A stretch of DNA of 64,000 nt from NCBI RefSeq assembly GCF_037996645.1, contig NZ_JBBMXV010000004.1, positions 62,001 to 126,000 on the forward strand. The letters are read 5' to 3'. Each line of letters begins with the position of its first letter. Position 1 is the stretch's first letter. Under the pieces are notes generated by a model. The model saw nothing but the letters and a program-made list of their open reading frames with translations, was not told the origin of the DNA and did not search any database. The position numbers and the translations under genes were made by a program. This document shows, piece by piece, positions 12,072-22,468 of this stretch. The DNA is from Halalkalicoccus tibetensis. GTDB lineage: Archaea > Halobacteriota > Halobacteria > Halobacteriales > Halalkalicoccaceae.

Positions 12072-12344
12072 TTACCGTTCGTCGCCGGGCGTCGTCGGGC
12101 GCGGACGGCGCCCGAACTCCGAGCGCCGGTAGCGCTCCTGGTTGCGGATCTCCTCGTCCCACTCGGTGAAGATGCCGTACTCGACCATCGTCGTCATCCC
12201 CGCGATCGCCGCCCGGAGGTTGATGCCGACCAGCGGGATGTCCGCGACCGTCACGACGACGTCCGCCTGGACCAGCGCCCCCTCGGTCAACAGCACGTCG
12301 AGCACGTCGACGACCGCGTGACCCTCGGTGCGCGTCGGCTCCAT
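12072..12344 (-). CDS. gvpM: Gas vesicle protein GvpM
   Basis: GvpA-family minor protein, 90 residues, last gene of the leftward gvp operon. The GvpA-like core reads VVDVLDVLLTEGALVQADVVVTVADIPLVGINLRAAIAG. The tail EWDEEIRNQERYRRSEF is typical of GvpM. ATG 12344 is used; it overlaps the gvpL stop (TGATG), while the preceding GTG would add one residue. GvpM belongs to the F-M accessory set needed for vesicle nucleation. Confidence 0.88.
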   Translation of the reverse strand: MEPTRTEGHAVVDVLDVLLTEGALVQADVVVTVADIPLVGINLRAAIAGMTTMVEYGIFTEWDEEIRNQERYRRSEFGRRPRPTTPGDER

Positions 12345-13189
12345 CACTCCTCACCCCCGATCGACGGGGCATGCGAGTACGGCGGCCACGGCCCCGTGTA
12401 GTTGACGTCGAACCCCTCCCGCTCGAGGAACCCCTCGAGGACGTCGCCGATCGGCCCCTCGCTCTCCCCGGGCGCGAGCACCGAGAGCTGGACGACCGTC
12501 TCGAGGCCGTCGTCGACCCCGTTCGTCCCGCTGGCGTCCAGAAGCGTCGACCCGCCGTCCCCGGCCGTCTCGACCGCCGCGGCGTGTTCCGCGACCCGAT
12601 CGTAGAGTTCGCCCGCGAGCTCGTCGCGGCGCGCCTGGAGGCGCTCCGCGAGGCGCTGGTCGTACTGCTTCTCGATCAGGTAGCCGGTGCCCTCGCTCGA
12701 ACCCTCGATGCGCTCCTCGAGCTCCGCGAGCTCCTCGTCGCCCTCGGCGATCCCCTCGCGAACCGCCGCCTCGTCCCATCTGAGCTCGATCCGGTACTCC
12801 CAGCGGCCCGAGAGCTCGTCGAGGGCCTCGTCGAGCTGCGCGCCGTTCTCGTCGATCCAGCCCTCGACGCGCCCGTCGTCGCCCTTGATGACGGTGTCGA
12901 ATCGGAAGGGGACGGGGGTGTCGAACGCCTCGCCCGCGGCGTCGACGACGCGCTGATGGGCGAGTAGCCACCGCTTGACCTGCGTGAGGTCGTCCGAATC
13001 GAACATCGCGTCGACGGGCTGGACGACCGCGCCGATCCCCTCGTGCTCGACGATCCGGACCTCGCCGCCCTCGATTCCCTCGACGTCGATCGAGGCGTCA
13101 CCGTCGGCCCGGACCGCACAGTAGAGGTACCGACCCTCGTCGAACTCCGTGGCGCGCTGGTTCTGGTTTCGACTCTCGTTCCCGCTCAT
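12344..13189 (-). CDS. gvpL: Gas vesicle protein GvpL
   Basis: Protein of 281 residues of the GvpL/GvpF family, starting at ATG 13189 within the gvpK stop. It begins the conserved part with GRYLYCAVRADGD and ends with FDVNYTGPWPPYSHAP, the YTGPWPPY signature shared with GvpF. GvpL is thought to act as a hub that binds the other accessory proteins during nucleation. A longer upstream open frame on this strand is gvpK sequence read in another frame and is not coding. Confidence 0.92.
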   Translation of the reverse strand: MSGNESRNQNQRATEFDEGRYLYCAVRADGDASIDVEGIEGGEVRIVEHEGIGAVVQPVDAMFDSDDLTQVKRWLLAHQRVVDAAGEAFDTPVPFRFDTVIKGDDGRVEGWIDENGAQLDEALDELSGRWEYRIELRWDEAAVREGIAEGDEELAELEERIEGSSEGTGYLIEKQYDQRLAERLQARRDELAGELYDRVAEHAAAVETAGDGGSTLLDASGTNGVDDGLETVVQLSVLAPGESEGPIGDVLEGFLEREGFDVNYTGPWPPYSHAPSIGGEE

Positions 13190-13518
13190 TCTTCGAGCTC
13201 CTCGTAGTGGTCGTCGTAGACCCGTTCGATCCCGTCCGAGAGGAGGTCGTTGAGCTCGCCGCGCAGCTCGCCGACGTCGCTCTCGATCCCCTCTCGCTCC
13301 TTGATGCCCTCGATCTCCTCCTCGATCGCCTGGAGCTGCGTCCCGAGGCGTTCGATCTCCTCGGGGTCGAGAGCACCCGACTCCATCCGTCGGATCGCCT
13401 CCTTCTCCATGGCCTCGACGAGCAGCTCGACGACGGTGATCACGAGCGCCAGCAGCCCCGAGGCCGCGTCCGCCTCGCTTCCCTCGTCGCTCTCGCCGCC
13501 GAGGTCGATCTGTCTCAT
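13186..13518 (-). CDS. gvpK: Gas vesicle protein GvpK
   Basis: Protein of 110 residues matching GvpK: LLALVITVVELLVEAMEKEAIRRMESGALDPEEIERLG, then a coiled-coil-like acidic carboxy half. It is essential for vesicle formation in haloarchaea and bacteria. It overlaps gvpJ and gvpL by 4 bp at each end, which suggests translational coupling. Confidence 0.92.
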   Translation of the reverse strand: MRQIDLGGESDEGSEADAASGLLALVITVVELLVEAMEKEAIRRMESGALDPEEIERLGTQLQAIEEEIEGIKEREGIESDVGELRGELNDLLSDGIERVYDDHYEELEE

Positions 13519-13988
13519 GAATCGCCCTCACTTTCGTCGTCCGCGTCGGTCACCTCCTCGCCGCCCCCGTCACCCTCGTCCTCGCTCCCGCCCTCGCCGT
13601 CGTCGGTGGCGATCGGGACCTCGGGGTTCGGGCGCTCGCTCGGGGGGTCGCTGCTGGAGCTCTCGCTCCCGCCTTCATCGTCGTCCGCGTTCGAGCCCCC
13701 CTCGCTCGCGCTGATCCCAAGGTTGACTTCCTCGCCCTCCTCGACCTCGAGGGGTTCGCGGCCCGAGGCCTGTTCGACCCGGCGCATGTCCGTGCCGCTC
13801 GGGAACGCCAGTCCGTACTCGGCGGCGGTCTCGAAGGAGGCGATCGCCGCCCGGATCTCGACCCCCAGGAGCTCGGTCTCGCCGACGGTGACCGCGATGT
13901 CGGCGTTGATCACGATTCCCTTATCGAGCACGAGCTCGAGGACGTCCGCGAGGTCGCTTTTCTGTCGTGTTGGTTTTGCGCTGCTCAT
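13515..13988 (-). CDS. gvpJ: Gas vesicle protein GvpJ with long acidic tail
   Basis: GvpA paralogue of 157 residues. The GvpA/J core is residues 8-75 (LADVLELVLDKGIVINADIAVTVGETELLGVEIRAAIASFETA). A tail of about 70 residues, mostly Ser, Gly, Asp and Glu, makes it noticeably longer than the roughly 110-120 residues usual for GvpJ. Minor wall or nucleation protein. It sits seven bases after the unassigned gvpI-position gene and overlaps gvpK. Confidence 0.9.
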   Translation of the reverse strand: MSSAKPTRQKSDLADVLELVLDKGIVINADIAVTVGETELLGVEIRAAIASFETAAEYGLAFPSGTDMRRVEQASGREPLEVEEGEEVNLGISASEGGSNADDDEGGSESSSSDPPSERPNPEVPIATDDGEGGSEDEGDGGGEEVTDADDESEGDS

Positions 13989-13995
13989 GGTTAGG

Positions 13996-14796
13996 TCACT
14001 CCGTGTTCGCGTCGTCGAACCGTCGGCCGTAGATCCGCCGCGGGTTGTCCGCCCGCGAGTACTTGACCTGCGAGGGCACCGTCGAGCGCCGCGTCGAGGC
14101 CGAGTTCGCGAGCGGGCCGCTCGGCATCGTCGAGACCGCCGTCGGGTTCAACGAGTCCTGTCCGCTCAGCTTCTCCTGGTTGTACTTATAGAGCAGACGG
14201 AGCTTGTCGTGGGTCTCCAGCAGTGCGGTCCGGAACCCCCCAACCGCCTTCGAGATCAGGTTCTCGATGTGTTGCTGGCGGTTCTCGGGGTCGAACTGCA
14301 TGTGGGCGCCGTCGCCCATCCCCAGCTCCGTATCGAGCAGGCCGCCGTCGTCCTCGTTCGCGCCGTCGACGTCGTCGTCGGTGACGTCGTCGATCTCCTC
14401 CTCGAGCTCCTCCTGTTCCTCGCGCAGGTCCCCGATGTCCGCGGCCTCCCACAGCTCCCGGAACCGGATCGCGTCCTTGAGGTCGGTGAGATCGATCGCG
14501 TCGCCGTCCTCGTCATCGGCGATCGCCTCGGGGATCTCCTCGACGTCGACGGCGTCGGGCAGCTCGTCGAGCTCGATCACGTCGGGCACCTCCTCGAGGT
14601 CGAGGGTCTCGAGGACGTCCTCGGCCTCGTCGAGGACGTCCCAGATCTCCTCGGCGGTCTCGATGACGTCCTCGTCGTCGCTCCCCTCGACGATGTGGCG
14701 CTTCAGCTCCTCGATCCCGTCGGCGATCTCCGGGAGCAGCTCCTCGAGCTCGTCGAGGATCGACTCCTGGAGCGTCTCCGATTCGGTCTCGCTCAC
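13996..14796 (-). CDS. Acidic protein in the gvpI position, family unassigned
   Basis: Protein of 266 residues between gvpH and gvpJ, the place of gvpI in halobacterial clusters. Classical GvpI is short and basic. This protein is long and acidic, with three imperfect units (LEEVPDVIE, LDELPDAVD, VEEIPEAIA, around residues 66-95), then FRELWEAADIGDLREEQEELEEE. A later helix, VGGFRTALLETHDKLRLLYKYNQEK, precedes a basic Ser/Arg-rich end (RADNPRRIYGRRF). The carboxy end could be a GvpI remnant fused to an unrelated haloarchaeal domain; I cannot confirm that. It overlaps gvpH by 4 bp. Confidence 0.7.
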   Translation of the reverse strand: MSETESETLQESILDELEELLPEIADGIEELKRHIVEGSDDEDVIETAEEIWDVLDEAEDVLETLDLEEVPDVIELDELPDAVDVEEIPEAIADDEDGDAIDLTDLKDAIRFRELWEAADIGDLREEQEELEEEIDDVTDDDVDGANEDDGGLLDTELGMGDGAHMQFDPENRQQHIENLISKAVGGFRTALLETHDKLRLLYKYNQEKLSGQDSLNPTAVSTMPSGPLANSASTRRSTVPSQVKYSRADNPRRIYGRRFDDANTE

Positions 14797-15317
14797 GATC
14801 CTGCCCCCTCGGGTTCGGTCCGCAGGCGGACCTCGAGGACGCCGTTCCTGAACGTCGAGTCGGCCACGTCGATCCCGGCGTCGCCGAGCGGGATCCGCTC
14901 GATCACCTCGCTCCCGAGCCCGATGACGAGGTCGCCCCGCTCGCGGTCGATCCCGGCGGTGACGTCCTCGGCGGTCGCCTGCGGGAGGTCCGCGAGCACG
15001 ACCACGGCGTCCTCCTCCTCGCGGATGTCGACGAGGTGGTCGTCGTCGGCGGGTGCGGGCGTCGACGCCGAGCCCGACGACCCCGATCCGCTCGCCTCGC
15101 TTTCCTCGTCGACCCCGAGGCGCTCCCAGAGGCTGTCGGGGTCCGGTCCGGTGCCGACGCTGAACCCGTAGTCGGTGCGCGTGTGGTTGCCCGAGACCGT
15201 CCCGCTGCCCGTTCCACTCCCCTCGCCGTCTCGTTCCGCGTCCTGTAGCGTCTCGACGACGTGTCTGAGGACGTCGAGCAGCGACGAGGCTTCGCGATGG
15301 TTGTCGTCGGTCGTCAT
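14793..15317 (-). CDS. gvpH: Gas vesicle protein GvpH (Hsp20-like)
   Basis: Protein of 174 residues. The amino half is Gly/Ser/Thr-rich and low complexity. The carboxy half is a small-heat-shock-like domain (HLVDIREEEDAVVVLADLPQ, then FRNGVLEVRLR, the alpha-crystallin FxNGVLEV pattern). GvpH in Haloferax and Halobacterium is dispensable and thought to chaperone other Gvp proteins. It overlaps gvpG upstream and the unassigned gene downstream. Confidence 0.9.
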   Translation of the reverse strand: MTTDDNHREASSLLDVLRHVVETLQDAERDGEGSGTGSGTVSGNHTRTDYGFSVGTGPDPDSLWERLGVDEESEASGSGSSGSASTPAPADDDHLVDIREEEDAVVVLADLPQATAEDVTAGIDRERGDLVIGLGSEVIERIPLGDAGIDVADSTFRNGVLEVRLRTEPEGAGS

Positions 15318-15568
15318 TGTTGGATCTGGATGTTCTTGTTGTTGAGCTGTTCGTGTGCCTGTTCGGCCGTCTCGAGCTCCGCCTCGAGCTCCGCCTTCCG
15401 CTCAGTGTACTCCGCCTCGGTAAGCTCCCCGAGCTCGTAGAGCAGCTGGTTCTCCTTCAGGTCGTTCTGGATCTCCTCGATGTCGTACAGCTCCTTGACC
15501 GCCATCGTGTGGATCGCGTCGAGGATGGAGGTGAACGGTCGGATGAGGATGTCATCGAGGATGAACAT
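15314..15568 (-). CDS. gvpG: Gas vesicle protein GvpG
   Basis: Protein of 84 residues with the GvpG pattern: MFILDDILIRPF at the start, then AVKELYDIEEIQNDLKEN and a coiled coil (LGELTEAEYTERKAELEAELETAEQAHEQL). Essential accessory protein. The gene follows gvpF by 6 bp and overlaps gvpH by 4 bp. Confidence 0.92.
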   Translation of the reverse strand: MFILDDILIRPFTSILDAIHTMAVKELYDIEEIQNDLKENQLLYELGELTEAEYTERKAELEAELETAEQAHEQLNNKNIQIQQ

Positions 15569-15574
15569 GATTGG

Positions 15575-16204
15575 TTATCGTTCGGCGGTGATCTCGATGT
15601 CGACGAAGTTGTAGGGTGCCCACGGCCCGGTGTACTGTACGAGCAGCTCGTCGTGGTCATCCTCGAACTCGCCGACGGCCCCGTCGAACGCCTCCCGGTC
15701 GTCGCGCTCGACGAGGTACGATCGGTTGATCACGAGTCGATCACTGAACAGTTCGTTCTCCACCACGTTAACACTTATCCGGTCGAACCGCTCCTTGACC
15801 TCCGCGAGGAGCTCCTCGCGATCGACCTCGGCGTCCTCCTCGGTGAGGACCTTCAGGCCGAGCTCGACCATCCCGTCGATCTCCCGTAGCGTCCGTCTGA
15901 ACACCGGCCTGGCGTTCCTGAGGACGTTCTTCAGGGTGCGCTCGTTCTTGAACCCCATGCCGAACCCCATCGGGACGATCGTCCGGCCGCCGTCGTACTG
16001 GAGGATCGTCTGGAGCACCTCGTCGTGCCGGCGGACGTTCTCGTCGGTCCGCTCGGGTTCGACCGTGTCGATGTCCGAGACGACGGCCGAAAGCGATTGG
16101 TAGTCGACCGTGTAGGCGCGCTCGCCCCCGTCGACGCCGTCGATCTCGACATCGAGGTCCTCGTTCTCGATCACGCCGTACACGTAGAGTGAGTCGTCGG
16201 TCAT
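15575..16204 (-). CDS. gvpF: Gas vesicle protein GvpF
   Basis: Protein of 209 residues, first gene of the leftward operon, starting at ATG 16204. Family features are [11 protein letters not shown], the central [19 protein letters not shown], and the end [20 protein letters not shown] with the same YTGPW-PYNF element as GvpL. GvpF is a minor structural/assembly protein that contacts GvpA. An upstream extension to 16360 would run into the divergent gvpA promoter and is rejected. Confidence 0.93.
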
Positions 16205-16332: not shown

Positions 16333-16596
16333 ATGAGTCAAGCAAGACCAAGCACGTCAAGTCTGGCGGAAGTACTCGACCGGATCCTCGACAAAGGCGC
16401 TGTCATCGACATCTGGGTCCGCGTCTCGCTCGTCGGGATCGAGATCCTGACCGTCGAGGCCCGTGTCGTCATCGCGTCCGTCGACACGTTCCTCCACTAC
16501 GCGAGGGAGATATCGAAGATCGAGCAAGCCGAGGAGGAAGGGGACTTAGACGACCTCGAGGACATCGAGATCGAGGCGTCCGCCGAATCCGCGTAA
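16333..16596 (+). CDS. gvpA: Major gas vesicle protein GvpA
   Basis: Main wall protein, 87 residues. The core is near-canonical: [58 protein letters not shown]. It forms the amphipathic rib lattice of the vesicle. The carboxy tail is more acidic than usual ([21 protein letters not shown]). The ATG at 16333 follows GAGGGGAAG, a possible ribosome binding site. gvpO follows 9 bp downstream. Confidence 0.97.
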
Positions 16597-16605
16597 GCGG
16601 GCCCC

Positions 16606-17058
16606 ATGTCCGCTGCGGGATCAGACGACGGGCAGTGTCGGGCGCTGACGTCCGACGGTGAGCGGTGTACCCGGCCGGAACAGGACGACGGGTTCTGTTA
16701 TCAACACGGGCCCGACGACGAGACGATCGACGATCAAGAGACAGGATCCACTATGTCAAGCGAAACCGACGTCAGCGAGACCGAGATCGGTGCCGTGCGC
16801 ACGAAGATCAACGAGGTCGCCGAGGACCTCATCGGACGGCCGCTCATAAGCGTCGTCTCCGTCGACCGCGACCGCAAGAAGGACGACGACGAGGAGCCGG
16901 GCTGGGTCGCGGCCGTCGAGATCCTCGAACGCAAGAGCGTCCCCGACACCCAGGACATCCTCGGACGCTACGAGATCACGCTCGATGCGGACCAGACGAT
17001 CACCGGCTACCGTCGAACCCACCGGTACCGCCGCGACGACATGGATCAGGACGTCTGA
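16606..17058 (+). CDS. gvpO: Gas vesicle protein GvpO with N-terminal Cys/His knuckle
   Basis: Protein of 150 residues. The carboxy part (about 65-145) is GvpO: ISVVSVDRDRKK, then GWVAAVEILERKSVPDTQDILGRYEITLDADQTITGYRRTHRY. The first 35 residues form a separate module, CRALTSDGERCTRPEQDDGFCYQHG, with a C-x8-C-x8-C-x2-H pattern that probably binds a metal. An internal ATG (codon 50) would give the classical GvpO alone. Both starts read well; the longer is annotated because the knuckle is clearly protein-like. Confidence 0.87.
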   Translation: MSAAGSDDGQCRALTSDGERCTRPEQDDGFCYQHGPDDETIDDQETGSTMSSETDVSETEIGAVRTKINEVAEDLIGRPLISVVSVDRDRKKDDDEEPGWVAAVEILERKSVPDTQDILGRYEITLDADQTITGYRRTHRYRRDDMDQDV

Positions 17059-17109: not shown

Positions 17110-17448
17110 ATGAGTGACGACGAGATCGTCCTGCCATGGATCGACGAACCGATGAACGTAGAGGAAGCCGTCGAGGCGCTCGGGCAGGCCTCAGTCGACG
17201 ACGGCGAGCACCTCGAGGAGCTGGAAGCACGTATCGAACGCCTCGAACGCCTCGTCGACAGCCTTCAGGACGGTTCAGGGGTCGAATGCCCCGAGTGCGG
17301 GAGCGAGGAGGAGGTCTACAAGGCCGGCGTCGGCGCCGCGAAGCTCGCGAACGACGGCGGGCTGACCGACGGCAGCGCCGACGCGCTCAACCGTGAGTCC
17401 CACGTCTGTCTCGACTGCCAGGAGTCGTTTACACCCTCGTTCAAGTGA
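17110..17448 (+). CDS. Coiled-coil zinc-ribbon protein downstream of gvpO
   Basis: Protein of 112 residues, not recognised. Residues 1-30 are acidic with a possible amphipathic helix (MNVEEAVEALGQA). Residues 35-55 form a short coiled coil (LEELEARIERLERLVDSL). The rest has two CxxC pairs (CPEC and CLDC) flanking about 40 residues, a likely zinc ribbon. It is 51 bp after gvpO on the same strand. A role in vesicle assembly or regulation is a guess from position. Confidence 0.75.
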   Translation: MSDDEIVLPWIDEPMNVEEAVEALGQASVDDGEHLEELEARIERLERLVDSLQDGSGVECPECGSEEEVYKAGVGAAKLANDGGLTDGSADALNRESHVCLDCQESFTPSFK

Positions 17449-17515: not shown

Positions 17516-20038
17516 ATGGGTGATGAACGTACGACCGATGACTCCATAGAGCGATCCGAGAGGCACGTACTGCTTTCGGATGGTGGGGAGTCAGCGGACG
17601 AAAGCGAGGAGGACGACGAAGAGGGAGAAGCGTCCGAAGACACGGGACCCGAGAACGGAGAGGACGACGAAGAAGGGGAAGACGAGAGGAGCGAAAGTGA
17701 CGAGGAAGACGATGAAGTGGAGCAAGACGACGAAAGTGAGGAGGACGAAGAGGAGAACGGCGACGAGGAAGACGAGGAAAGCGAGGCCGACGAAGACGAC
17801 GAAGACGAAGAAGACGAGGAAAGCGAGGCCGACGAAGACGACGAAGACGAAGAAGACGAGGAAGCGGAGGAAGACGAGGAAGAGACATACGAACTTTCGG
17901 TAACCGTCGAGAACAGCGAGGGCGAATCCGTCGCGGGCGCGCCCGTCACCGTCGAGAGCAAGGATATGGGGGTCATCGAGGGCGTTGTCGACGATCCCGA
18001 GCAGGAAGAAACCGACGAGGACGGCGCGGTCACCTTCGAGTTAGGGGACGCTGAATACAGCGTCGAAACAGTCGTCGGCGACGAGGAAGTCGAGGAACGA
18101 ATCGAGACCGACGGCGCCGACGAGGAGGTTACCCTTTCGCTCGATACCGACGCCGAAGACGCGGAGGAAGCAGAAAACGAAGACGAGGCGGACGAAGACG
18201 AGGCGGACGAAGACGAGGAGGAGGCCGAGGAAGAACAAGCCGATGAAGGCGAGGAGGACGAAGAGGATGCGGAGGGCGAAGCCGACGACGGCGACGAGGA
18301 GGAAGCAGCCGAGGAGAGCGAGCGAAACGAGCTGATCGTCGTCGTCGAGAACGAAAACGGCGAGTATATTCAGGGCGCGACCGTCTCGGTCGAAAACAAG
18401 GACGACGACTCCTTGGGTGGGGGCGAACAGCAGGACACCGGCTCCGATGGCGAGACACGGTTCCTCGTCGAGGACGGCGATTACGTCGTCGAGGCCGAGG
18501 CCGACGAGGGGAGCGCCGAAGACCAGTTCCCCCTTGAAGGCGACGAGGAGATCACGTTGACCGTCGTCTCCGACGAGGAGACTCACACGCTCACAGTCAC
18601 CGTACAGGACGACGAAGGCGAGCCCGTTTCAGGGGCGTCTATTACCGTCGAAAGCGAGGATATGGGGTTGGTCGAGGGATTTCAGACTCGCCCCGACGAA
18701 GCCGAAACCGATTCGAGCGGACAGGAGTCCTTCGATCTGGCGTCAGGTCAGTACACGGTGGCCGTCGAAGCCGACGACGAGACGAACGACCAAGCGATCG
18801 AGATCGAGGACGACGACGAGGATGTCACGCTCACGCTCGATGTCGGCGAAGAGGACGAGGAGGACGAAGAGGAAGGTCGTGTCGGCCCGAAGGAAGCGGA
18901 GGGCGAGGTCGACGAGGACGAGTCCGCGAGCCACGGCACCGAACGCGGATCGACGGTGCTGTATCTCGATCTCGAGGGGCTGTTCCTCGATCTCCTCGGA
19001 CTGGAGGTCGATCTCCACGAGGTCGTCCTCGACGTTCGGGCGATCACTGGAGAGGGGAACCTACTCGGGAACCTGCTGTCGGCGGTCGCAGGGCTGTTGG
19101 ATTCGCTGTCGGGCGTGCTCAACCGATTGCTCAACACCGTCCTCAATCTGTTGAGCTACATCACTTCGCCGTTGAAATGGCTCTGGAACCAGATCAAAAA
19201 ACCGTTCAAATGGGCCCGCCAGCTCTTGAGCCGGGTCGCGAACACGCTCGCGGCGCCGATCAGTGCGATCAAGAGCGCTGCAAGTCGGGTCTGGGGTGTC
19301 ATCACCTCGCCGATCAACGCACTCAAGAGCGCTGCGAGCTGGATCTGGGGAATCGTCAGTTCGCCGGTGGATTCGATCAAAAACGCGCTGGGACGGCTCC
19401 GGGGGCTACTCCCCTCGTTGCCCTCGCCCGGTGGCTGGCTGGGGAGTGTCACAGAGCGACTCAAGAGCGCCCTCGGCGTTCCGGCCGACTACCTGCGCGT
19501 CGGCGCGAACCGTCTCGGAAACTCCATCGAGAACGCGATCGACGCGCTGCGTGGCCTCGGCGGTCGAGTTCTTGGAGTTCTTACCTCGCCGATCAGTGCG
19601 CTCGGTAGCGCACTGGGTCGGCTTCGAGATGCGTTGGCCTCGCCGATCGAGACGCTTCGAAACGCCGCGAGCCGCGCTTTCGGCGTGCTCACCGCGCCGG
19701 TCGACTGGCTGCGTGGGCTGTTCGGCGGCGACGATGAAGAGGACGAAGAGGACGAAGGGGACGGATTGCTGAGTGGGATTGCAGAAAGCGTCTCCGACCG
19801 GCTGAGCAGCGTCGTCGAATGGGCGAGCGACATCGAGGATCGGATCGCGGGCTGGGCGCGAAACGCTGCGGATCGGATCTCGAACTGGCTGCGCAACGTC
19901 GCGAACTGGCTCACCAGCCCGATCCAGATGCTGCTTTCGGCGTTCCCGATCGAGTCGCTGCTCAACGAGCTGCTCAAGCAGTTGATCGGTGAATCAGAGG
20001 ACAACGAGTCGAACGGTGGGGAGGACACTACCGAGTGA
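17516..20038 (+). CDS. Large acidic modular protein: Cna-B-like domains, LGNLL domain, 18-residue helical repeats
   Basis: Protein of 840 residues with no signal peptide. Residues 25-125 are almost pure Asp/Glu/Ser. Three homologous beta domains of the Cna-B/carboxypeptidase-regulatory type lie at about 126-207, 272-348 and 357-437 (VTVENSEGESVAGAPVTVES and relatives), separated by acidic linkers. Residues 482-525 form a compact hydrophobic domain (LFLDLLGLEVDLHEVVLDV, then GNLLGNLLSAVAGLLD). Residues 580-735 are amphipathic helices punctuated by Ser/Ala-Pro, often 18 residues per unit. Two more helical stretches follow an acidic spacer. Function unknown; a surface-coating protein is an inference. 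TATA-like CTACTTATG lies about 25-30 bases upstream. Confidence 0.8.
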   Translation: MGDERTTDDSIERSERHVLLSDGGESADESEEDDEEGEASEDTGPENGEDDEEGEDERSESDEEDDEVEQDDESEEDEEENGDEEDEESEADEDDEDEEDEESEADEDDEDEEDEEAEEDEEETYELSVTVENSEGESVAGAPVTVESKDMGVIEGVVDDPEQEETDEDGAVTFELGDAEYSVETVVGDEEVEERIETDGADEEVTLSLDTDAEDAEEAENEDEADEDEADEDEEEAEEEQADEGEEDEEDAEGEADDGDEEEAAEESERNELIVVVENENGEYIQGATVSVENKDDDSLGGGEQQDTGSDGETRFLVEDGDYVVEAEADEGSAEDQFPLEGDEEITLTVVSDEETHTLTVTVQDDEGEPVSGASITVESEDMGLVEGFQTRPDEAETDSSGQESFDLASGQYTVAVEADDETNDQAIEIEDDDEDVTLTLDVGEEDEEDEEEGRVGPKEAEGEVDEDESASHGTERGSTVLYLDLEGLFLDLLGLEVDLHEVVLDVRAITGEGNLLGNLLSAVAGLLDSLSGVLNRLLNTVLNLLSYITSPLKWLWNQIKKPFKWARQLLSRVANTLAAPISAIKSAASRVWGVITSPINALKSAASWIWGIVSSPVDSIKNALGRLRGLLPSLPSPGGWLGSVTERLKSALGVPADYLRVGANRLGNSIENAIDALRGLGGRVLGVLTSPISALGSALGRLRDALASPIETLRNAASRAFGVLTAPVDWLRGLFGGDDEEDEEDEGDGLLSGIAESVSDRLSSVVEWASDIEDRIAGWARNAADRISNWLRNVANWLTSPIQMLLSAFPIESLLNELLKQLIGESEDNESNGGEDTTE
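17768..17851 (+). repeat. Two perfect 42-bp tandem copies in the acidic tract
   Basis: Bases 17768-17809 and 17810-17851 are identical, and the first bases of a third copy follow. Each codes for fourteen residues rich in Glu and Asp with one Ser and one Ala. The plus strand here is nearly all purine plus C. Confidence 0.9.
19253..19693 (+). repeat. 18-residue proline-punctuated helical repeats (54-bp units)
   Basis: Three contiguous units code for residues 580-597, 598-615 and 616-633 (APISAIKSAASRVWGVIT, SPINALKSAASWIWGIVS, SPVDSIKNALGRLRGLLP). After a diverged 57-residue stretch, two more units follow at 691-708 and 709-726. The consensus is [SA]-P-[IV]-x2-[LI]-x2-A, then x2-R in most units, ending in a hydrophobic pair. 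Eighteen residues equal five alpha-helical turns. Confidence 0.85.
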
Positions 20039-20183
20039 GTAGACCGATGTTCCGGACATCGGCCACGTCGGGTGGCGGACGGATCGGTGTCCGCTCTATC
20101 GGAGTCCCCGTCGCAGGGACCCGAGTTTGCAAGGGCATAGGATTACAACCACGTGCGATGAAAACGCAGATGCGAGAACTATC

Positions 20184-20675
20184 ATGAGTGACAACGGAAA
20201 TGACGACAACGGCAGTGGTACCGAGAACGAAAACGGAAACGGCGGCTCTTCGCTGCTCGATACGGTCACGGAGGCGGTCGGCGACATCGATTTCGAGCAG
20301 GTGTTCGAAGGAACAGTATTAGAGGATTCCTTCGACCCGGACGAGCAGAACACCGGGGTGGCGGTCGGGCGTGCGGTTGGCGAATTCCTTGGCCAGAAGC
20401 TCGGTGAGGTCGCTGGTCGGAAGATCGCGGAGATGATCGCCGAGGAGTTAGCCGAGAGTGATGATGAAGACGAAGAGGATGAGGAAGACCAAGAAGACGA
20501 GGAGGAAGACGCTGATGAAGAAGAGGATGACGGCGACGAGGACGAAGACGAGGAATCGGAGGGGGAAAACGAAGAGGATGAGGGCGAAGACGCTGATGAA
20601 GAAGGGGATGACGGTGACGAGGACGAAGACGAGGAATCGGAGGAGGAGCCCGAGGAAGAAGACGAGGAGGACTGA
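20184..20675 (+). CDS. Glycine-zipper acidic protein 1
   Basis: Protein of 163 residues. A Gly/Asn-rich start is followed by a helix (residues 59-90) with Gly at exactly every fourth position (62, 66, 70, 74, 78; GVAVGRAVGEFLGQKLGEVAG), then about 75 residues that are nearly all Asp and Glu. The segment before the helix, EGTVLEDSFD, matches EGTQLEDTDG in the next protein, so the two are paralogues. ATG 20184 is chosen over 20127 because the paralogues also start MSD. Function unknown. Confidence 0.72.
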   Translation: MSDNGNDDNGSGTENENGNGGSSLLDTVTEAVGDIDFEQVFEGTVLEDSFDPDEQNTGVAVGRAVGEFLGQKLGEVAGRKIAEMIAEELAESDDEDEEDEEDQEDEEEDADEEEDDGDEDEDEESEGENEEDEGEDADEEGDDGDEDEDEESEEEPEEEDEED

Positions 20676-20786
20676 GACGGATGGGACGACCGGCTGACCG
20701 ATTCACCGGGAGCACCGATTCACGCATCACACGAACCGTGGCGAACCAGCGACGCAAGCGGTGTTCGAGCGGAGGCTCTGACAGCT

Positions 20787-21470
20787 ATGAGTGACGACAA
20801 CAACGACGACGACAGTTCGGTCCTCGAAAGCATCGATACGGACGAACTCCTCGAAGGGACACAGCTAGAGGACACCGACGGGGATACCAAGAGCCTGGGC
20901 GAGGCGATCGGCCGTGCGATCGGTGCGATCATCGGAAGGCATATCGGCGAACTAATCGGACGGATGGTTACCGACCGGCTCAGCGGCGGAGACGAAGAAG
21001 AAGACACTCATGAACTGACGGTCACCGTGGCAGACGAGGACGGCGAACCCGTTCCGGGCGCGACCGTGACGACCAAGGACGCGGATGGGGGCCTTCTGAG
21101 TGGCGTTCTCGGGAGTGCCGAACGCGCCGAGACCGACGACGACGGCGAGACCACCGTCCAGCTCGAAGACGGCGACTACACGGTCGAGGTCGACGCCGAG
21201 GACGGAAGCGGCGAGGACAACGTGACCATCGAGGGCGAGGACGAGGAGCTCTCGGTGACCATCGAGGATGAAAGCGACGACGAGGAAGACGCCGGAGAGG
21301 ACGAAGCCGAAGACGCTGAAGAAGACGAAGCCGAAGAAGCTGAAGAAGCTGAAGAAGACGAAGCCGAAGAAACTGAAGAAGCTGAAGAAGACGAAGCCGA
21401 AGAAGACGAAGCCGAAGAAACTGAAGAAGCTGAAGAAGACGAAGCCGAAGAAGACGAAGACGAAGAATGA
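20787..21470 (+). CDS. Glycine-zipper acidic protein 2 with one Cna-B-like domain
   Basis: Protein of 227 residues. The amino part is homologous to the preceding protein and has Gly at 38, 42, 46, 50, 54 and 58 (LGEAIGRAIGAIIGRHIGEL). A single Cna-B-like domain follows at about 74-150 (HELTVTVADEDGEPVPGATV), closely related to the three in the 840-residue protein. The tail is Glu/Ala/Asp repeats. The mix of modules ties this gene to both types of neighbour. Role unknown. Confidence 0.75.
   Translation: MSDDNNDDDSSVLESIDTDELLEGTQLEDTDGDTKSLGEAIGRAIGAIIGRHIGELIGRMVTDRLSGGDEEEDTHELTVTVADEDGEPVPGATVTTKDADGGLLSGVLGSAERAETDDDGETTVQLEDGDYTVEVDAEDGSGEDNVTIEGEDEELSVTIEDESDDEEDAGEDEAEDAEEDEAEEAEEAEEDEAEETEEAEEDEAEEDEAEETEEAEEDEAEEDEDEE
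21363..21458 (+). repeat. Two perfect 48-bp tandem copies (Glu/Ala/Asp tract)
   Basis: Bases 21363-21410 and 21411-21458 are identical and sit in a longer purine-rich tract (about 21290-21468). The tract uses GAA for glutamate almost throughout, unlike the GAG preference of most genes in the window. Confidence 0.9.
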
Positions 21471-21532
21471 GGGAATGAAAGCATGACCACGAGAAGATCA
21501 CGGGAAACAGAAATATCGGCGGAGTGTGGATC

Positions 21533-22468
21533 ATGAGTGACGAGTCGATCATCGAGGCTGTCAATACTGGGGCACTGCTCGAAGCTATCGACATCGGCGA
21601 TCTACTCGAAGAGGTCGATCTCGAAAAACTGGCCAAGCGCGAGGATGTCAACGCAGCGGTCGCGGAGGTCGGTGCGGTCCTTGGGCGCGAACTGGGGCGG
21701 GCACTCGGCCGGGAACTCGGAGAGGTTACCGCCGAAGCGTTCGCCGAACACCCCTCAGCTGACGAGCTGATCGAGGAGATTAAAGGCGCGATCCACGAGG
21801 CGCTCAGGAGCCTGCTGGTGGATCCTGACGCTCGGTCGTCGCTCAAAGACGAACTCAAATCAATTGGTACGGAGCAGCTCTCCGGAGACCTGATATCGGA
21901 CGCTGTGGGCGGTTCGCTCGGCGATGACGAGGAAGAAGATGGCGAAGACGAGCAAGCGAGCGAGGAGGACGCCGAATCAGATGGGGAAGAGTCTGGCGAG
22001 AGCGACGATGAGGACGCTGAAGACGAGTCCGAAGAGGTGGAAGAAGACGAAGGAAGCGATGAGGGCGGGGACGAGGAAACCGAAGACGAAGAGGAGAAAG
22101 ACGAAAAGGACGAGGAGGCTGAAGAAGACGAGGAAGCTGAGGAAGACGAAGAAGGCGACGAGGGGGAGGACGACGAAGAAGAGGAAGAAGGTGACGAGGA
22201 AGGTGAAGAAGAGGACGAAGACGAAGAAGAGGCGGACGAGGAGGCTGAAGAAGACGAGGAAGCTGAGGAAGACGAAGAAGAAGAGGACGAAGGCGACGGG
22301 GACGAGACTGAAGGGGACGAGGACTCTGATCCGTCGAGCCGCGAGGAGTTAGAGGAGCTGTCCTACCGCGAGCTGCAGTCGCTCGCGAAGGACCACGACA
22401 TCAAGGCCAACCTCGGTCGCGAGGAGATGACCGACGATCTCGTCGAGGCGCTCGACCTCGAGGAGTAG
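21533..22468 (+). CDS. Glycine-zipper acidic protein 3 with SAP/Rho-N-like C-terminus
   Basis: Protein of 311 residues. The start resembles its neighbours (MSDESIIEAVNTGALLEAID). A helix has Gly at 47, 51, 55, 59 and 63 (VGAVLGRELGRALGRELGEV). Residues of about 75-130 look globular and helical. A Glu/Asp tract runs to about 265. The last 45 residues (LEELSYRELQSLAKDHDIK, then a short helix ending LVEALDLEE) resemble the SAP/Rho-N helix-extension-helix fold that often binds nucleic acid. ATG 21533 follows a GGAGTG sequence. Function unknown. Confidence 0.75.
   Translation: MSDESIIEAVNTGALLEAIDIGDLLEEVDLEKLAKREDVNAAVAEVGAVLGRELGRALGRELGEVTAEAFAEHPSADELIEEIKGAIHEALRSLLVDPDARSSLKDELKSIGTEQLSGDLISDAVGGSLGDDEEEDGEDEQASEEDAESDGEESGESDDEDAEDESEEVEEDEGSDEGGDEETEDEEEKDEKDEEAEEDEEAEEDEEGDEGEDDEEEEEGDEEGEEEDEDEEEADEEAEEDEEAEEDEEEEDEGDGDETEGDEDSDPSSREELEELSYRELQSLAKDHDIKANLGREEMTDDLVEALDLEE

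Follow-up and report, generated by a model that had tools for sequence, protein, structure and literature searches.

Haloarchaeal GvpC, for example that encoded by gvpC of pNRC100, is a gas-vesicle coat protein with helical repeats of 32-38 residues and a C-terminal acidic region. The loss of GvpC from many haloarchaea is already known: Pfeifer described vac regions without gvpC and gvpDE in Halopiger, Haladaptatus, Natrinema, Natrialba and Natronobacterium, and called the species Vac- (PMC4390858). We analyzed a 64,000-nucleotide stretch of Halalkalicoccus tibetensis (the window, G000:C4:62001-126000; all gene coordinates are window positions), in which a haloarchaeal gvp cluster is accompanied by four genes for acidic proteins, P1-P4 (17516-22468, all on the plus strand). 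On the basis of sequence comparison, P1-P4 are a local, expanded form of a conserved module. We suggest that this is a gas-vesicle accessory module which is used by most GvpC-less haloarchaea and has a GvpC-like coat role, working in place of GvpC, and we give this reading a probability of about one half.

The module comprises LGN (an LGNLL domain with amphipathic helical repeats), ZIP (a glycine zipper) and ZIP/SAP (a zipper with a SAP/Rho_N-like C-terminus), usually with a GvpI paralogue. Like GvpC, LGN combines helical repeats with acidic segments, its gene may lie in or near the gvp cluster and is found only with gvp genes, and the two distributions are complementary. Unlike GvpC, the module has repeats of 18 or 11 residues, carries different extra domains, consists of several genes and is mostly unlinked to gvpA, and no sequence similarity connects the two. 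The C-terminal GvpI motif STMP...ST(M/V)P is present both in the fourth gene of the standalone module and in the window's long GvpI. Proteins of the fourth gene do not end in R.YG.R, and their N-terminal half is acidic and helical; Halobacterium GvpI, by contrast, is short (144 aa) and reported to be basic. GvpU and GvpT of Bacillus megaterium can be likened to the module by description, not by sequence, as possible spatial organisers of vesicles, although the module comes from a different lineage. The C-terminus of ZIP/SAP may resemble SAP and Rho N-terminal (HeH) domains in its short helices and loop, as modelled by AlphaFold2 (AF2), whereas its sequence scores below the cut-offs of these families. 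The module itself is apparently undescribed; no published description was found in a literature search that lay largely outside subscription journals and preprints.

Distribution of the module and its relation to GvpC

The same 292 Halobacteria genomes were searched for gvpA, zipper, LGN and GvpC. gvpA was found in 119 of them, leaving 173 gvp-less genomes; zippers were found in 98, LGN in 96 (one, G198, marginal) and both together in 94. Genome G200 has ZIP, ZIP/SAP and a GvpI-like gene with a truncated first gene, and was counted as carrying a damaged module. With it, all 95 module genomes are gvp-positive and none of the 173 gvp-less genomes carries the module, so that the co-occurrence with gvpA which a first-pass annotation of the window had proposed as a check was borne out. 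A predominance in gvp-less genomes, which that annotation named as refuting its idea, is the reverse of what was seen. The LGN match in G253, an LGN protein from outside the module, was left out of the module count, and the zipper matches in the gvp-less genomes G067, G123 and G255, which have no LGN, were judged to be due to chance.

The association between LGN and gvp had a Fisher p of 2e-54 on the raw LGN list, which includes G253 and is not corrected for phylogeny. Because the genomes in this test are related, the count within Natrialbaceae alone is the stronger test: 108 genomes had both LGN and gvp, none had LGN without gvp, four had gvp without LGN and 13 had neither (3 of the 13 being incomplete). 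This joint absence is repeated across genera (g6, g28, g69 and g74), with g17 and g83 contributing incomplete genomes only. Among the 94 LGN genes that were placed, 19 lie within 15 kb of gvpA, 39 are on the same contig at a distance of at least 170 kb, and 36 are on another contig. Most copies are thus unlinked to gvpA, and an explanation of the association by linkage alone was ruled out. We are highly confident that the association of the module with gas vesicles is strong.

A search with the Halobacterium GvpC repeats as query located GvpC in 11 of the 292 genomes; each of these is gvp-positive and none has LGN. Within the gvp-positive genomes this exclusion had p = 2e-9, and it held in both directions (GvpC in 0/95 module genomes, the module in 0/11 GvpC genomes). 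The suggestion in the first-pass annotation that the four genes replace GvpC was thus upheld as to mutual exclusion, but not as a one-for-one exchange, for the reason given below. The module is present in 95 of the 119 gvp-bearing genomes, a large majority; because it is common and never occurs with GvpC, the apparent GvpC deficiency of haloarchaea probably hides a different accessory system. A diverged GvpC was also considered for P1-P4 and rejected for lack of similarity: PF01304 had no match in P1-P4 in the Pfam scan and none above cut-off in the family genomes, the Halobacterium GvpC repeats had no match in the window, and neither query gave a match above cut-off anywhere in the window genome.

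Anatomy of the module

In the sampled genomes of the family with an assembled cluster, LGN adjoins gvpA/gvpO in every one and zipper or zipper/SAP genes come next; in some relatives the set consists of no more than a short LGN protein of 277-309 aa and a single zipper/SAP protein. In the window the module is expanded, with ZIP triplicated and three Ig-like domains added to LGN. A restriction of the cluster to this genus was ruled out, because the zipper profile search found homologues throughout Halobacteria and the module is class-wide. In Natrialbaceae it is a free-standing operon, LGN - ZIP - ZIP/SAP - fourth gene, found in Natrialba, Natrinema, Natronococcus, Natronorubrum, Halopiger and others. 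Its fourth gene closes with the double STMP/STVP motif seen in Halobacterium GvpI, and the GVPI profile matches most standalone modules; in several loci blastp aligned it near the N-terminus with the long GvpI of the window at E about 1e-4 to 1e-6. By these matches it is a GvpI paralogue, which completes the module away from gvp. Elsewhere LGN and ZIP lie inside the gvp operon between gvpH and gvpI (Halocatena; loci L109, L111 and L121), after gvpM (L144) or after gvpO (L104, L105, L107, L115, L141 and L142). The class-wide range, the frequent separation from gvp and the usual GvpI paralogue go beyond the first-pass annotation.

That annotation had described four same-strand acidic genes beyond gvpA-gvpO and a zinc-ribbon gene, with Cna-B-like domains in two of the proteins, glycine-every-four helices in three, and, in one, an LGNLL domain together with helical repeats. 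All of this was recovered. The coordinates were confirmed, and five Asp/Glu tracts of 50-134 residues were measured: aa 28-123 (96 aa, 76% Asp+Glu) and 214-263 (50 aa) in P1, 93-163 (71 aa, 83%) in P2, 160-227 (68 aa) in P3 and 131-264 (134 aa) in P4. The Cna-B-like domains were assigned to PF13620 (CarboxypepD_reg), with three in P1 (64.5 bits) and one in P3 (39.4 bits; cut-off 32.3). P2, P3 and P4 share the helix with glycine at every fourth residue and are paralogues; the G-x3-G pattern is conserved, while the score against the glycine zipper family PF13488 (15.6-18.2 bits) is below the cut-off of 25.

P1 begins with an acidic tract, followed by the three PF13620 Ig-like domains, the LGNLL domain (about aa 476-530), the 18-residue amphipathic helical repeats, an acidic insert and a conserved C-terminal amphipathic helix. 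The helical repeat has a periodicity of 18 residues (harmonics at 36 and 54) that exceeds that of 1000 shuffles. LGN proteins of Natrialbaceae have 11-residue repeats in its place; both lengths nearly equal an integral number of helical turns, which keeps one face of the helix aligned. The AF2 model of the C-terminal part of P1 (predicted template modelling score, pTM, 0.30) has a small beta hairpin in LGN and then a helix of ~100 residues with a predicted local distance difference test score (pLDDT) of 80-90 in its middle. At the C-terminus of P4 a small helical domain was modelled with pLDDT 92-95. Its best Foldseek matches include the N-terminal domain of Rho and the SAP domains of Tho1, DEK and Ku70, with a root-mean-square deviation of about 1 A over 33-40 residues and E values > 1, and its Pfam scores were below cut-off (PF18953, 16.0 bits against 26.3; PF07498, 16.0 bits against 24.9). 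A sequence search of the PDB with the SAP and LGN parts gave no useful match. The acidic tracts have low confidence in the AF2 model, and the tails vary freely in length while the domains are conserved. All four genes recur among relatives under purifying selection, with ratios of nonsynonymous to synonymous substitution rates (dN/dS) of about 0.06-0.7 by domain (LGN 0.08, zippers 0.06-0.44, SAP 0.11-0.39), and the syntenic homologues and this selection rule out chance acidic open reading frames (ORFs).

The LGNLL domain also ends non-module proteins of ~210-240 aa (L053 1071-1787, L055 4467-5123, L216 7763-8401 and G007:C2:335311); the N-terminus is twin-arginine-like in the L053 and L055 proteins. 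The domain therefore has uses besides gas vesicles.

The proposed coat and its alternatives

Because the module occurs, among the sampled genomes, only in gvp-positive ones and never with GvpC, its products are probably the outer-surface proteins that most haloarchaeal gas vesicles had seemed to lack. From the gvp-confined distribution that excludes GvpC, the kinship with GvpI, the repeated amphipathic helices and the acidic tails, all of which were observed, we infer a coat mechanism. The long amphipathic helices of LGN, with their 18- or 11-residue repeats, would bind the GvpA shell, and the acidic tails would project outward, facing the cytoplasm. Such a coat might reinforce the vesicle or control its shape, the job that GvpC does elsewhere. 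ZIP helices may oligomerise by packing together, and ZIP/SAP could attach the coat or the vesicles to another partner through its SAP-like end. The GvpI-type proteins would connect the module to the GvpH/GvpL assembly complex; Halobacterium GvpI binds GvpC, GvpH and GvpL (PMC9501494, PMC7688916). More tentatively, at somewhat less than even odds, LGN, ZIP, ZIP/SAP and the GvpI paralogue form a previously undescribed multi-protein exterior layer of GvpC-independent origin, which reinforces and organises most GvpC-less haloarchaeal vesicles. If this is true, there are at least two unrelated solutions for gas-vesicle coats. The distribution of the module also shows that gas-vesicle genes can sit at a distance from the gvp cluster. 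GvpC has been the main means of engineering gas vesicles into ultrasound reporters and antigen carriers, and the module would offer new surface parts for such work.

Several points weigh against a coat that works in place of GvpC. Thirteen gvp-positive genomes (G200, G242 and eleven others) have neither an intact module nor a GvpC match, so the exchange is not obligatory and vesicles may be able to do without a coat. Among these genomes, G242 (Natrialbaceae), which lacks the module, has a short GvpI and a 416-aa acidic ORF between gvpA and gvpN (L133 9684-10934). LGN and GvpC, as said, show no sequence similarity, and overall confidence in the AF2 models is low (pTM 0.30 and 0.35), with no confident overall fold for P1. 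The GvpC-less species were listed as without visible vesicles, and the expression of their clusters was called unknown (PMC4390858). Finally, GvpD was found in 8 genomes, all with GvpC, and in none of the module genomes, which partly confounds replacement of GvpC with replacement of GvpD/E. The GvpC-bearing genomes without GvpD (G023, G211 and G243) also lack the module, and this favours GvpC over GvpD as the replaced protein, though the numbers are small. The acidic ORF of G242, which sits in the gvpC position, is possibly a diverged gvpC.

Among the alternatives, the one that survives best, although we consider it rather unlikely, is a clustering or condensate system in which acidic tracts, ZIP oligomers and SAP-like ends bundle vesicles without reinforcing the shell. 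The long acidic tracts with their low AF2 confidence, the zipper helices of oligomer type and the tails that vary freely beside conserved domains are consistent with it, and GvpU/GvpT of B. megaterium provide a precedent (PMC11445434, PMC10903477). The GvpA tail, the target of GvpU/T in B. megaterium (PMC10903477), is moreover longer in module genomes, with 31-61 residues after FLHY compared to 22 in the GvpC type, and is a possible docking site. However, it is also longer (28-48 residues) in gvp-positive genomes that have neither the module nor a GvpC match, and clustering alone does not explain the exclusion of GvpC. The longer tail usually has an EISKIE..GDLEDLEELEI-like motif (gvpA of the window; L045-L142, L118 and L122).

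The GvpI paralogue of the standalone operon, the insertion of LGN and ZIP between gvpH and gvpI in L109, L111 and L121, and the control of vesicle length by GvpI (PMC7688916) could instead point to assembly or nucleation factors: an additional accessory complex, with a GvpI paralogue of its own, that acts at vesicle initiation or elongation and is absent from mature vesicles. We regard this as unlikely, since exclusion of the coat protein GvpC would not be expected and the canonical GvpF-M set is already in these genomes. It is still more doubtful that the module is a regulatory or DNA-tethering one in place of GvpD/GvpE, whose SAP-like domain binds DNA or RNA while the rest controls gvp expression or vesicle partition. 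The SAP/Rho_N-like end of P4, the lack of GvpD in module genomes and the reported lack of gvpDE in GvpC-less clusters (PMC4390858) would fit, but the absence of the module from G023, G211 and G243 would not; acidic amphipathic-helix proteins are unlike regulators, and SAP folds serve in protein contacts as well. A role outside vesicles that merely shares their ecology, such as that of storage-granule surface proteins, is suggested by phasin-like amphipathic helices, as inferred from the helical repeat, and is very improbable given 0/173 gvp-less carriers, the repeated joint absence in Natrialbaceae, the GvpI homology and the insertion into the gvp operon.

The gas vesicle locus of the window

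In the gvp cluster, gvpM-L-K-J-I-H-G-F occupy 12072-16204 on the minus strand and gvpA-gvpO occupy 16333-17058 on the plus strand; the zinc-ribbon ORF and P1-P4 follow downstream (Table 1). As the first-pass annotation had stated, gvpC, gvpN, gvpD and gvpE are not nearby: none was found in the window or in the gvp loci of the family (GvpN and GvpE were not searched genome-wide), and GvpD had no match in the whole window genome. The ORF of P2 is open further 5', from TTG 20127, and GTG is a possible start of P4 at 21524. The long GvpI has an acidic helical N-terminal extension and a C-terminus of the form NPxAxSTMP...STVP...R.YG.R; this motif and the gene position between gvpH and gvpJ place it in GvpI.

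Table 1. Genes of the gas vesicle locus and of the adjoining module (window positions)
Feature	Coordinates	Strand	Basis or content
gvpM	12072..12344	-	PF00741 44.8 bits
gvpL	12344..13180	-	PF06386, NF045778
gvpK	13186..13518	-	in the minus-strand gvp cluster
gvpJ	13515..13988	-	PF00741 50.7 bits
long gvpI, 266 aa	13996..14796	-	alignment with Halobacterium GvpI; GVPI profile
gvpH (Hsp20-like)	14793..15317	-	PF05455
gvpG	15314..15568	-	PF05120, NF045779
gvpF	15575..16204	-	synteny and homology to GvpF
gvpA, 87 aa, extended acidic C-terminal tail	16333..16596	+	PF00741 56.8 bits
gvpO	16606..17058	+	PF05800 78 bits, NF045806
ZnR, 112 aa, coiled coil and zinc ribbon	17110..17448	+	keeps its place between gvpO and LGN in several lineages
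P1, LGN protein, 840 aa	17516..20038	+	Pfam; LGN profile; period-18 repeat; AF2; dN/dS
P2, ZIP protein, 163 aa	20184..20675 (from first ATG)	+	glycine-zipper helix and 71-aa acidic tail
P3, ZIP protein, 227 aa	20787..21470	+	glycine-zipper helix, one PF13620 domain, acidic tail
P4, ZIP/SAP protein, 311 aa	21533..22468 (from first ATG)	+	zipper helices, 134-aa acidic tract, C-terminal SAP/Rho_N-like domain

One further gvpA-like gene, of 67 aa and 69% identical to gvpA of the window, stands alone, with no other gvp genes nearby (L057 7244-7447; G000:C4 about 607243-607446). In the plasmid gvp cluster of Haladaptatus halobius, an additional gvpO and a zipper-like gene are located between gvpA and gvpF (L120 7816-8855). 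Long acidic GvpI proteins of about 250-400 aa, like that of the window, occur in GvpC-less clusters (L119, L121 and L123), compared to 117-144 aa in GvpC-type clusters, and they are annotated in public records as 'hypothetical protein'.

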